From Asticcacaulis sp. (GTDB lineage: Bacteria; Pseudomonadota; Alphaproteobacteria; Caulobacterales; Caulobacteraceae): a stretch of DNA of 35,142 bases. The notes under the pieces were generated by a model. The model saw only the letters and a list, made by a program, of their open reading frames with translations, was not told where the DNA came from and searched no databases. Within the stretch, counting starts at the first letter, position 1, and each line of letters opens with the position of its first letter. Positions 3,210 through 27,060 of this stretch are shown one piece after another. A program made the translations under genes and the position numbers. The DNA lies in contig NZ_JAIXSV010000064.1 in the NCBI RefSeq assembly GCF_027484505.1, forward strand, positions 1 through 35,142. Reading direction: 5' to 3'.

Positions 3210-4415
3210 ATGACCGCCTCCCCTTCCATCGCCGTGATTGGCGCCGGCCCCGCCGGGCTGATGCTGGCCGAACGCCTCAGCGCCGCGGGCCTGCGGGTTG
3301 ATATCTATGACCGTATGCCCTCGGTGGCGCGCAAGTTTCTGATGGCCGGGCGCGGCGGGCTGAACCTCACCCATTCCGAGCCTCTGGCGGCCTTTATTGG
3401 GCGCTATGGGGCGCAGGCGGCGACGCTCAGACCCGCCATCGAGGCCTTTCCACCCAAAGCCTTGCGCGACTGGGCCGACGGGCTTTCGGCCGACACCTTC
3501 GTCGGGACCAGCGGGCGGGTCTTCCCGAAGGCGTTGAAGGCCTCGCCCCTGTTGCGCCAGTGGCTGGCGCGACTGGAAGCCCCAAGTTCTGGCATGGGGG
3601 TCCGCTTTCATCTGCGCCATACGTGGACCGGCTGGGACGGATCGGCACTGATGTTCGATCATCTGGGCCAAAGCGTGCGCGTCGAAGCCGATGTGACCGT
3701 GCTGGCGCTGGGCGGGGCCAGTTGGCCGCGACTGGGCTCAGACGGCGGCTGGACCCGCTTGCTGAGCGAAAAAGGCGTGCCCGTCGCGCCGTTGCGCCCG
3801 GCCAATATGGGCTTTCGCGTCGGCTGGAGCGCCCTGCTCCGCGACAAATTCGCCGGGGAGCCGTTGAAAAACGTCGCCCTGACCTTTGATGGCCGCACGC
3901 GCAAGGGCGAGTTGATGCTGACCCGCGACGGGGTCGAAGGCGGGCTGGTCTACGCCTTTGCCGCCGCCCTGCGCGACGCGGTCGAACGCAAGGGCGCGGC
4001 GGTGGCGTCGTTAGACCTCAAGCCCGAATGGTCGGAGGCGCAAATCCAGAACCGCCTATCGCGCGGGGCCAAAAACGACAGCCTGAGCAATCGCTTACGC
4101 AAGACCCTGAACCTGACCCCGGCGCAGATTGCCGTGCTGCGCGAAGGCGATCAGGCGGTTACCCCGGCCCTGATCCCAAGTCTTATCAAAGCCGTGCCGC
4201 TGACTCTGACCGGGGCGCAGGGGCTGGAGCGCGCCATATCGAGCGCCGGGGGTATCCGCTTCGACGCACTGACGGCAGATTACGAACTGAAGGCCCTGCC
4301 CGGTGTCTATGCCATCGGCGAAATGCTCGACTGGGAGGCCCCAACCGGCGGCTACCTGCTTCAGGCCTGTTTCAGTCAGGCGGTGTGGACGGCTGAGGCG
4401 ATCTTGCGTAAGTAA
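3210..4415 (+). CDS. TIGR03862-type FAD-binding flavoprotein (HI0933-like)
   Basis: A 401-residue protein with an N-terminal dinucleotide-binding fold (IAVIGAGPAGLMLAERL, residues 6-22). It continues with ARKFLMAGRGGLNLTHSE, the signature loop of HI0933/YhiN-like flavoproteins, and ends with GEMLDWEAPTGGYLLQACFSQA, the FAD-contacting C-terminal motif. This places it in the TIGR03862 subgroup of putative NAD(P)/FAD-dependent oxidoreductases, whose substrate is unknown. I chose the ATG at 3210 because the Rossmann strand starts six residues later. The in-frame extension to 3123 overlaps the repeat and has no homology-like features. A phosphatase gene follows after 6 bases. Confidence 0.9.
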   Translation: MTASPSIAVIGAGPAGLMLAERLSAAGLRVDIYDRMPSVARKFLMAGRGGLNLTHSEPLAAFIGRYGAQAATLRPAIEAFPPKALRDWADGLSADTFVGTSGRVFPKALKASPLLRQWLARLEAPSSGMGVRFHLRHTWTGWDGSALMFDHLGQSVRVEADVTVLALGGASWPRLGSDGGWTRLLSEKGVPVAPLRPANMGFRVGWSALLRDKFAGEPLKNVALTFDGRTRKGELMLTRDGVEGGLVYAFAAALRDAVERKGAAVASLDLKPEWSEAQIQNRLSRGAKNDSLSNRLRKTLNLTPAQIAVLREGDQAVTPALIPSLIKAVPLTLTGAQGLERAISSAGGIRFDALTADYELKALPGVYAIGEMLDWEAPTGGYLLQACFSQAVWTAEAILRK

Positions 4416-7335: not shown

Positions 7336-7752
7336 ATGCGGGGGGTATGGCTGCTTCTGTTCAGCATCACGGCGGTGATCGGCAACGGTATTTTTGCCTT
7401 TACCGATCTCGCCTGGCGGCTCTCAAGGTCTCCTACGGAAAGCTATCCGGAGATACTTTATGCGGCGTATTTCTTTCCGACCTCTGTGCTGCTTCTGATC
7501 GACTCTGTACTTCTGCTGTGGGCGAAAAAGCCGTCGCCCCAGAACGAGCTTTGGCTTGCTGCGGATGCAAAACTGGCCGGTTTGGGCCTGCTGAGCCTGT
7601 TGTTTGTACTGCCGTTCAATGGAAAATGGTCGTTCGTGCAATCAGTTGGACAAGTCGTTATCGACTGTTATGTGTTTGTCGCCTACCCGCTTTATCTCTA
7701 TTTGACTGCACGCGGGATCAGGCAGATTTGGCGTTTTCAGGTGTCAAATTAG
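7336..7752 (+). CDS. Four-helix membrane protein, unknown function
   Basis: A 138-residue hydrophobic protein with about four predicted membrane helices (residues 3-22, 42-62, 78-95, 105-127). I recognise no family. The start is strongly supported by AGGAGGGG four bases upstream of the ATG, and the gene begins 8 bases after the UbiD stop. It is likely translated from the same transcript. Base composition is slightly more AT-rich than its neighbours. Confidence 0.7.
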   Translation: MRGVWLLLFSITAVIGNGIFAFTDLAWRLSRSPTESYPEILYAAYFFPTSVLLLIDSVLLLWAKKPSPQNELWLAADAKLAGLGLLSLLFVLPFNGKWSFVQSVGQVVIDCYVFVAYPLYLYLTARGIRQIWRFQVSN

Positions 7753-8074: not shown

Positions 8075-8285
8075 CTCTCCTCCCTGTCGCGTCAGCGATG
8101 GGGAGGTGGATCCGAGTGAAACGAGGAGACGGAGGGGGATTGCGCCGTTGGTCGTCACATGTACGGCACTTTGGAGGTACGCACAACAAAGGCAGCAGCC
8201 AGCCCGTCTTCCGAGTCTCCCCCCTCCGTTCGCGATCATCCGCACCAGCGGCCCGGTCCCCACGGCAAGGCCGCAGGGAGGAGAG
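8075..8285. repeat. CCTCCC palindromic element abutting a stop codon
   Basis: 12-bp perfect outer arms (CTCTCCTCCCTG at 8075-8086, complement at 8274-8285) enclose degenerate inner arms (GACGGAGGGGG near 8130 and CCCCCCTCCG near 8219). The right end touches the TAA (8286-8288) of the next - strand gene. Confidence 0.75.
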
Positions 8286-8798
8286 TTAGCCTGACTTCTT
8301 ATACGGCGTACCGTCGGGCCATTTGCCTATGCGGGCGGCGCGTTGTTCGCGCATCTGCGCCTGTTTGTCGGCCCAGCCCTTTGACCACTCGCTGTGCGGA
8401 TTGGCGGCGGGCGTTACCCCCTCCACCCCTTCGGGGTCCCCCTCCCCCGCTATCGCAGAGGAGGATGTTATGCCTTTCTCCTCCCCTGTAAGCCCGTCAG
8501 GGCGCAACGGGGGAGGTGGATCGGCGCGGGAGCGGCGAGACGGAGGGGGCGCTTCAGTCGGCACCATTTCCTTGACGGGCTTCGGTTTTGCCTTCAGCAG
8601 CGGCGTGTAAAGCGCGCGCAACATCCGCTCGACGGCCATGATGGCGCGGGCGGTGCGGCCGATCTCTATGGCCGTGGTCGGGCGCGGTGCGGTTTCGAGC
8701 GCGGTCAGAATCTGATCCGCGAGACGCATCAGGCGGTCATAGGCCGCTGTGGGGTCAGCGGTGTGAGCGGCGGGGATGTGGGGGGCAATCTGTGTCAT
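8286..8798 (-). CDS. Hypothetical protein with an in-frame palindromic repeat insertion
   Basis: A 170-residue protein of unknown function. The N-terminal 75 residues (DRLMRLADQILTALE, TARAIMAVERMLRALY) look like a conserved amphipathic helical domain. The last 35 residues (WADKQAQMREQRAARIGKW) look like a conserved basic tail. Between them, residues of about 82-131 are low-complexity (PPPSRRSRADPPPPLRPDG, EGDPEGVEGVTP) and are encoded by a copy of the CCTCCCC palindromic element (8405-8553). The repeat stays open and in frame. The ORF has no signal peptide or membrane helix. The start at 8798 has no strong ribosome binding site. Confidence 0.6.
   Translation of the reverse strand: MTQIAPHIPAAHTADPTAAYDRLMRLADQILTALETAPRPTTAIEIGRTARAIMAVERMLRALYTPLLKAKPKPVKEMVPTEAPPPSRRSRADPPPPLRPDGLTGEEKGITSSSAIAGEGDPEGVEGVTPAANPHSEWSKGWADKQAQMREQRAARIGKWPDGTPYKKSG
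8405..8553. repeat. CCTCCCC palindromic element inside a coding region
   Basis: The stretch contains ACCCCCTCC near 8416, a second CCTCCCCC at 8440-8448, then CTCCTCCCCTG near 8478 with its partner GGGGGAGGTGGA near 8509. It ends in GAGACGGAGGGGGCGC, as in the intergenic copy at 8075-8285. It shares the base pattern of the intergenic elements but lies wholly within the ORF at 8286-8798. Confidence 0.75.
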
Positions 8799-8898
8799 GG
8801 GCTCAGCATGACAGAGGTTTCTGCGGCGGGGACAGATGCCTCGAAAATGCGATTAAGCGGTTGAAATTGTGTATGTCTGAGCGGGGATAGATTTTTTC

Positions 8899-9228
8899 GC
8901 CACGGATAGACACGGATGGCGGGCTTCGCCCGCCTGACACAGATGGTCCGCGCACCGACCCTCTCAAATGCACCATTAGATCGGATGACTTTTAATGGAC
9001 TCTCCGTTCAAGCACCTCCCCTGATTTCAGGGGAGGTGGATTTGACGCCGCTCAGGCGTCAAAGACGGTGGGGTTAATACCACCGCATTAACCCCACCCG
9101 GCGCTGCGCGCCACCCTCCCCTGAAATCAGGGGAGGCGCTGTAGCGCTATGCCGTTTCCACCTAAAATCATTTCACCTACATCCGTGCAGGCCGCGCATA
9201 AGCGCGGCCATCCGTGTCTATCCGTGGC
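8899..9228. repeat. Nested palindrome: CCACGGATAGACACGG arms around a CCTCCCC element
   Basis: Perfect 22-bp outer arms lie at 8899-8920 and 9207-9228. Within them a complete CCTCCCC-family element spans 9013-9136, with hairpin arms CACCTCCCCTGATTTCAGG at one end and its counterpart at the other. The central segments GGTGGGGTTAAT and ATTAACCCCACC are complementary. The 500-bp gap between flanking genes (8799-9298) holds no credible gene. Confidence 0.85.
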
Positions 9229-9298
9229 TAACTCAAACCCTGTTTCCCTAATGCGCAAAATCGCGTTAGATGCGCGCTAAAAGGTCAAGGGAGTCGTC

Positions 9299-10543: not shown

Positions 10544-10581
10544 TTAGGCTGCGGTGACGATTTAAGATTTAATGCGGTTCT

Positions 10582-10742
10582 TTTCTCCTCCCTACGAAGT
10601 GGGGTATAGCGTAGCGAAAGTATAGCTTTCGCAAGCGATGGGCAGCGAGCGAAGCGAAGCTGACGGAGGGGTACACTTACCTGAGAAGATACTCCTCCGC
10701 CTCGTAAACTCGGCACCTCCCCATAAAATGGGGAGGAGGAAG
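10582..10742. repeat. CCTCCC palindromic element, diverged copy
   Basis: The left arm TTCTCCTCCCTACGAAGTGG and the right arm CACCTCCCCATAAAATGG plus GGAGGAGGA are partly complementary. The middle contains the AGCGAGCGAAGCGAAGCTGA and CGGAGGGG segments typical of the family. It occupies most of the gap between the hydrolase (+) and the GGDEF-EAL gene (-), which converge here. Confidence 0.7.
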
Positions 10743-26953: not shown

Positions 26954-27009
26954 GCGCGAGATTAACTTATCGGCTGTGGTGATAGGTTGATCTTTAACAC
27001 GGCTCTTTT

Positions 27010-27060
27010 CTCCTCCCCATATCATGGGGAGGTGGCAGCGAGCGTAGCGACGCTGACGGA
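27010..27060. repeat. Half copy of CCTCCCC repeat after the GH27 gene
   Basis: CTCCTCCCCATATCATGG with its partner GGGGAGG is followed by GTGGCAGCGAGCGTAGCGA and CTGACGGA, the same tail as in the copy at 10582-10742. The opposite arm is missing. The remainder of 26954-27275 (about 320 bp) holds no credible gene, and the sequence becomes AT-rich from about 27170. Confidence 0.75.

Follow-up and report, generated by a model that had tools for sequence, protein, structure and literature searches.

The best-known palindromic repeats that are translated as parts of proteins are those of the intracellular genus Rickettsia. The genus considered here, Asticcacaulis, is presumably a free-living relative of Caulobacter, and a dispersed repeat of its family is treated below as a case of the same kind. 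Among the described systems, Rickettsia palindromic elements are presented as palindromic repeats of about 150 bp that stand in frame in unrelated genes (PMC10969869). REPs tagged with GTAG or CGTC are portrayed as dispersed stem-loops that occur mostly in pairs of one orientation; the CGTC-tagged forms are placed mainly in alphaproteobacteria and are given no known transposase, and for several genera both groups are reported to lie inside genes at times, including genes for tRNA synthetases (PMC3733652). A CGTC-tagged REP, in the description of the same source, has a stem of 8-9 bp that opens with A-T pairs, a CGTC tag and a CCA tail (PMC3733652). The CIR element of Caulobacter crescentus is characterized as CcrM-associated and strictly intergenic (Chen and Shapiro, 2003, as cited in PMC10969869), and the enterobacterial RU/ERIC elements are depicted as small mobile repeats that are intragenic and readable as parts of proteins (PMC2759123).

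The DNA analyzed here, referred to as the window, is the whole stretch of 35,142 nucleotides from an Asticcacaulis sp. genome. Very probably, a REP/MITE-like palindromic repeat that is spread over the Caulobacteraceae has entered a small two-part protein encoded in this window by in-frame insertion into its linker, and is tolerated there as a coding linker. The repeat works like the Rickettsia palindromic elements and the intragenic REPs and is of the same kind, not of a new kind. As with the Rickettsia elements, the family is found both outside and inside genes, and several unrelated genes carry in-frame insertions, with relatives that lack them at some of the sites; an earlier note on this DNA had pointed to this resemblance, and the in-frame behavior is indeed much as described for Rickettsia. 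However, the host group differs, the half-units of the present repeat come and go separately, the repeat is also found at the two paralogous loci of a protein specific to one genus, and the likeness is one of description.

The predominance of one pair orientation is shared with the CGTC-tagged REPs, whereas the stem of the present repeat is CCTCCCC/GGGGAGG with no adjoining CGTC tag, and only the TGG/CCA flank agrees. Identity with the CGTC-tagged REP as described (PMC3733652) is set aside because of the stem and tag in the half-unit consensus. CIR is likewise a repeat of a bacterium from the same family; identity with it is set aside on the basis of its description, as the present pairs contain 0.14 GANTC each and occur in genes. 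RU/ERIC elements come from an unrelated host group, and their likeness to the present repeat is by description only (PMC2759123). Among the literature matches listed, a scope that leaves most subscription papers outside, there is no earlier report of such a case for Asticcacaulis or of this repeat in frame.

Structure and Distribution of the Repeat

Aligned copies indicate that the repeat is modular, consisting of half-units that are usually paired and measure 49-77 bp among the copies used. Every half-unit has the hairpin TCCTCCCC-loop-GGGGGAGG; in form a, TGG comes next, then a variable second stem and ACGGAGGGGGC, and in form b the hairpin is succeeded by GGGGACC..GGTGGAGGGGGC. Among 78 stretches, which were chosen from the best matches and from the gene loci of six genomes and are not a random sample, 57 pairs are convergent, 5 are divergent and none is tandem, that is, the convergent orientation predominates and the others are rare. 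Pairs average 134 bp with 0.14 GANTC per pair, as calculated over 56 pairs (57 of the 62 pairs lie outside coding insertions, and the one omitted, at 3268-3395 of locus L189, stands outside IleRS). The repeat is G+C-rich and stop-poor, with 3.27 open frames of six compared with 2.71 in shuffles, which is weak evidence.

In the genome that holds the window (G000; the other genomes compared are G001-G024), a search with the 149-bp stretch finds 23 places, the query itself included, and a palindrome pattern gives 57 matches as against 7 with a backwards control. At E <= 1e-4, the half-unit model matches at least 95 of 119 Caulobacteraceae genomes and at least 18 of 22 genera; these are lower bounds from at most 150 or at most 46 scored candidates per genome. 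As evidence on the linker, the half-unit models are mildly circular, since their training copies had been picked out by resemblance to this element or its motif. One such model, R1, was built from 22 of 26 half-units. The REP-type Y1 tyrosine transposase (PF01797) has no match in the window's own genome, a draft of 369 contigs, and the same search is positive in 5 of 14 control genomes; this transposase was set aside as the mover. The halves of most pairs are inverted, and no target duplication is apparent by eye at one insertion in a paralog pair. The lack of a transposase and of a target duplication counts against the explanation by insertion.

A Genus-Restricted Protein Family

The host gene was earlier described as unrecognized, and this holds: its frame on the minus strand is open over 170 residues (Table 1), and no library names the protein. 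In Pfam, no match rises above the curated cut-off (DUF1315, at E 0.11-0.16, lies below it), and searches against Pfam, NCBIfam, PHROGs and PDB return chance-level values only (E 0.018 and above); four longer distant relatives also have nothing above the cut-off in Pfam. An origin from a plasmid or phage was rejected, as tblastn gave no match in the plasmid or phage collection. Of 25 genomes of the genus, 17 contain matches to the protein at E <= 0.001, and several of these matches are weak or involve nothing but the repeat. Its profile matches 17 of 199 Caulobacteraceae genomes, all of one genus out of 22. The family is restricted to this genus, presumably Asticcacaulis.

Table 1. Features of the 170-residue gene, its linker and its surroundings (positions in the window unless another contig is given)
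Feature	Position	Strand	Basis
Gene of unnamed protein family, copy A, 170 aa (G000:C54:8286-8798)	8286..8798	-	Open frame, homologs in genus
Copy B of the same gene in the same genome	G000:C225:13530-14030		
N-terminal helical domain, residues 16-76	8571..8753	-	dN/dS 0.07, helices in AF2 model
Older half-unit, form a, antisense to gene, residues about 83-107 (contains SRRSRADPPPPLRPDGLTGEE)	8479..8550	+	nhmmer E 8.3e-10 on window
Second half-unit, form b, sense to gene, residues about 112-128 (contains SSSAIAGEGDPEGVEG)	8417..8465	-	nhmmer E 6.2e-12 on window
Conserved C-terminal region, residues 132-170 (GWADKQAQMREQRAARIGKWPDGTPYKKSG)	8289..8405	-	dN/dS 0.06, invariant alignment columns
Separate half-unit of the same repeat family, past the stop codon, outside the gene	8078..8138	+	nhmmer E 2.4e-5
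Upstream region conserved between both paralogous loci, several species	8799..8893	-	DNA alignment, A/B upstream matches

An AF2 model calculated from the single sequence (mean pLDDT 62) contains helices at residues 16-36, 43-69 and 134-156, and residues 70-133 appear in it as low-confidence coil. The linker is probably disordered in the cell, and the protein is presumably made. Fifteen gene copies were translated, of which 14 are open over the available part (two G015 copies end at the end of a contig); the remaining one, the locus-A copy of G006 (L029), is decayed, with one TAG and a broken frame. The C-terminal end differs in a single copy, that of G007 at locus A.

The close relatives occupy two orthologous loci, A (that of the window) and B, which are both present in six genomes including the window's own; across species, the flanks of A match those of A and the flanks of B those of B. 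Locus B adjoins a gene whose translation reads as a putative RarA. Over the domain codons, copies A and B of G016 resemble each other at 0.89 and the G000-G004-G007-G015 clade at 0.74-0.81, and the A/B resemblance signal is mixed inside that clade. The gene pair may evolve in concert, given that the loci are orthologous, yet the G016 copies are closer to each other than to the neighboring clade.

Two Half-Units in the Linker

Translated in frame, the repeat yields a Pro/Arg/Gly-rich linker that joins two conserved regions, as the earlier note had proposed. What that note took for one 149-bp element (8405-8553) is actually two divergent half-units, 8417-8465 and 8479-8550, which lie 13 nt apart, and the rest of the stretch is this spacer and short edges. 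The claim that a dispersed repeat lies inside the gene is borne out by the genome search given above and by the scores in Table 1, which were obtained by searching the window with half-unit models from other loci of the same genome. Models built without any gene copies also find both half-units (E 1.7e-10 and 1.2e-12), R1 matches the older one at E 2.1e-8, and the second is 88-94% identical over 49 bp to six other places in the same genome. Apart from these and the half-unit past the stop codon, the window has only weak half-unit matches (E 0.009 and above).

Ten close gene copies from five genomes (G000, G004, G007, G015 and G016) can be aligned over the segment of the older half-unit, so that residues 82-131 or thereabouts are not missing from the close homologs. 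Nor is the insertion unique to this gene copy: the older half is strong in both G000 copies and both G016 copies, and G007, G004 and G015 have it in decayed form, with weaker scores (E 7.6e-4 to 0.54), at the corresponding position of the alignment; five of the ten close copies score only E 1.4e-3 to 0.54. Presence of the segment in homologs had been named as a sign of an ordinary linker. This sign is seen in part, but the segment is still repeat-derived, because it scores against models from other loci and its rate of evolution is far above that of the domains. Of the 15 gene copies scored, 8 contain one or more half-units at E < 1e-3. In the four G001 and G013 copies scored, the older half-unit was not found; three of them have a sense half-unit (E 2.3e-6 to 2.3e-4), and the fourth, at locus B of G001, has no detectable half-unit. 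Two further G013 copies reach only E 0.1 and 0.17 inside the gene, and the G006 copy has no half-unit match at E <= 10.

At a distance of 13 nt behind the older half-unit, a form-b half is found in the window's copy and a form-a half in copy A of G016, and the other close copies have a non-scoring stretch of similar or shorter length at this place. Form b at this place is confined to the window's copy among the close copies scored, and the second half-unit may be either old and refreshed here or new. The G016 paralog pair is the clearest case of a half-unit difference. From the ATG to the insert, its copies agree at 174 of 187 bases (93%); copy B then has a 63-nt sense half-unit, in frame, before the old one, which is absent from copy A, and the sense half-unit of copy A lies at the opposite end of the old one. 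Half-unit content thus differs between paralogs and between species.

Within G000, G004, G007 and G015, dN/dS is 0.07 in the N-terminal domain and 0.06 in the C-terminal region, compared with 0.52 in the older half-unit and 0.71 in the stretch behind it; two parts under purifying selection are joined by a fast-evolving linker. In comparisons with G016, the corresponding values are 0.27, 0.14, 0.42 and 0.46, and in those with G001/G013, at high divergence, they are 0.86, 0.24, 0.77 and 0.51. The contrast shrinks with more distant copies, which counts against the explanation by tolerated insertion.

In-Frame Copies in Other Genes

For the rest of the window, the repeat had been placed only between genes, which is true of the window and not of its genome or genus, where in-frame copies occur. 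In a scan of 150 elements from 14 genomes, seven are open in frame with both flanks scoring 0.13 or more, a threshold that was read off the sorted list and applied to a codon model trained on the window; the stretches are non-random, and some had been chosen for containing the gene. The hosts are a membrane protein (in G000, G006 and G016), IleRS (G016), a DUF2126 protein (G023), TilS (G016) and copy B of the 170-residue gene (G016); copy A of the latter genome falls below the threshold. All seven are among the 103 elements from the genus, as against none of 47 from other genera of the family. The identities of IleRS and TilS, two proteins that act in protein synthesis, are confirmed by both Pfam and NCBIfam, and that of DUF2126 (amidoligase) by Pfam. 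A GT87 identity was considered for the membrane protein and finds no support in Pfam or NCBIfam; its name rests on hydrophobic stretches.

The IleRS site is readable in all 25 genomes and measures 19-21 residues in G001, G013, G024 and G004, 28-49 residues in most others and 65 in G016. Half-units occur there in four of the genomes: G006 has one, G008 and G016 have that one and another, and G019 has a different pair. The site in the window's own genome has 43 residues and no detectable half-unit, which means that such sites lengthen by other means too. The insertion place corresponds to residues 217-225 of the best-scoring solved IleRS, which we take to lie near the start of the editing domain, and short chains that align from this place onward fit that position. 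In the membrane protein, a pair is present in 3 of 14 readable genomes (22 loci, 8 of them unreadable), where the site has 59 residues, and sites without the pair have 19-30 residues in the ten genomes measured (one of the 14 sites was left out of the length count). Both in IleRS and in the membrane protein, the site is distinctly shorter in relatives free of half-units. TilS has a half-unit pair in 3 of 8 readable genomes (25 loci, 17 of them unreadable), with 61-71 residues, and the five readable genomes without half-units have 46 residues, 15-25 fewer. Because this difference is smaller than the length that a pair would add, a clean gain is not established for TilS, and replacement or decay is as likely.

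The same gene is available with and without the repeat, within one genome and between related species, and in enzymes such as IleRS and TilS. With such gene versions, it becomes testable how a repeat moves without a known transposase, and whether loops merely tolerate it or the protein or mRNA is changed by it.

Origin and Maintenance of the Linker

According to the explanation preferred here, one half-unit is old and common to the close relatives, this copy has a second one next to it, and halves have been gained, lost or exchanged in other gene copies. Selection would remove insertions that break the frame or strike folded parts, and those in loops or linkers whose length keeps the frame would survive, so that repeats become coding linker; G+C-rich, stop-poor repeats would be the ones tolerated in flexible stretches. 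Most likely, the disordered linker tolerates insertions, and the added peptide probably has no selected function.

It is possible, though not the course that we expect, that the second half-unit arrived not by insertion but by gene conversion, an exchange with the paralog or a copy elsewhere in the genome. The form-b half of the window's copy stands where the paralog has a stretch of similar length, so that a clean gain is not established there, and although the loci are orthologous from species to species, the copies of one genome are alike, most clearly those of G016. On the other hand, copy B of G016 has gained 63 nt relative to copy A with its extra half-unit, and IleRS and the membrane protein, which have no known paired locus here, still differ by whole elements between genomes.

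A wider version of the process, which we consider rather unlikely, is that half-units recurrently supply linkers (in the 170-residue gene, in IleRS near the start of the editing domain and in TilS), with the halves independently gained, replaced or lost and some palindromes kept because the mRNA or DNA hairpin is useful. More generally, the palindromes could be kept as RNA or DNA hairpins, for example to slow translation between the two parts or as a protein-binding site, and not merely tolerated, which seems improbable. The mRNA strand of this copy folds strongly (-83.4 kcal/mol, z -3.3), and the core of the older palindrome, 12 codons, has no nucleotide change between G000 copy A and both G016 copies. 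Segments without a difference are found at that core only (1 of 108 and 2 of 94 overlapping segments, with domain averages of 8.5 and 7.4 differences), but this core was examined since it had been noticed beforehand. Such constancy is not required of a merely tolerated linker and counts against tolerance alone; it would be compatible with a hairpin function as well as with exchange. Within the four species, pS is also lower in the older half-unit (0.19) than in the domains (0.26 and 0.30), whereas in comparison with G016 it is no lower (0.45) than in the N-terminal domain (0.44). Furthermore, the core has drifted in the copies of G004, G007 and G015, which are nearer relatives than G016, and the locus-B copy of G001 does without a detectable half-unit.

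Finally, it is very improbable that the linker is an ordinary Pro/Arg-rich one that resembles the repeat by convergence from G+C-rich composition: the older segment is present in all ten close copies, half of them scoring poorly, and the G006 copy, the G001 locus-B copy and the two further G013 copies have weak scores or none, but the linker's matches to genomic copies elsewhere (the E values of the models without gene copies and the identity of the 49 bp to six other places) largely refute this reading, and the spacing and hairpin order of the genomic pairs in the linker and the paralogs that differ by a whole half-unit speak against it.

Neighboring Features

Between the UbiD gene and the 170-residue gene, an ORF of 138 residues (7336-7752) has no Pfam match above the cut-off and no NCBIfam match. 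The conserved upstream region, which covers about 95 bp before the start codon, contains two copies of a TCTRTCCCCG motif and is possibly a shared promoter or regulator site. Beyond it lies an inverted pair of a CCACGGATAGACACGGATGGC repeat (8896-8920 and 9207-9231), which in other species likewise precedes several copies of the gene. The window and the genome also contain two further subfamilies of dispersed palindromes (9011-9140; 10547-10741 and 26972-27060), the ends of one being CCTCCCCTGATTTCAGGGGAGG and those of the other CTCCTCCCCATATCATGGGGAGG-like.
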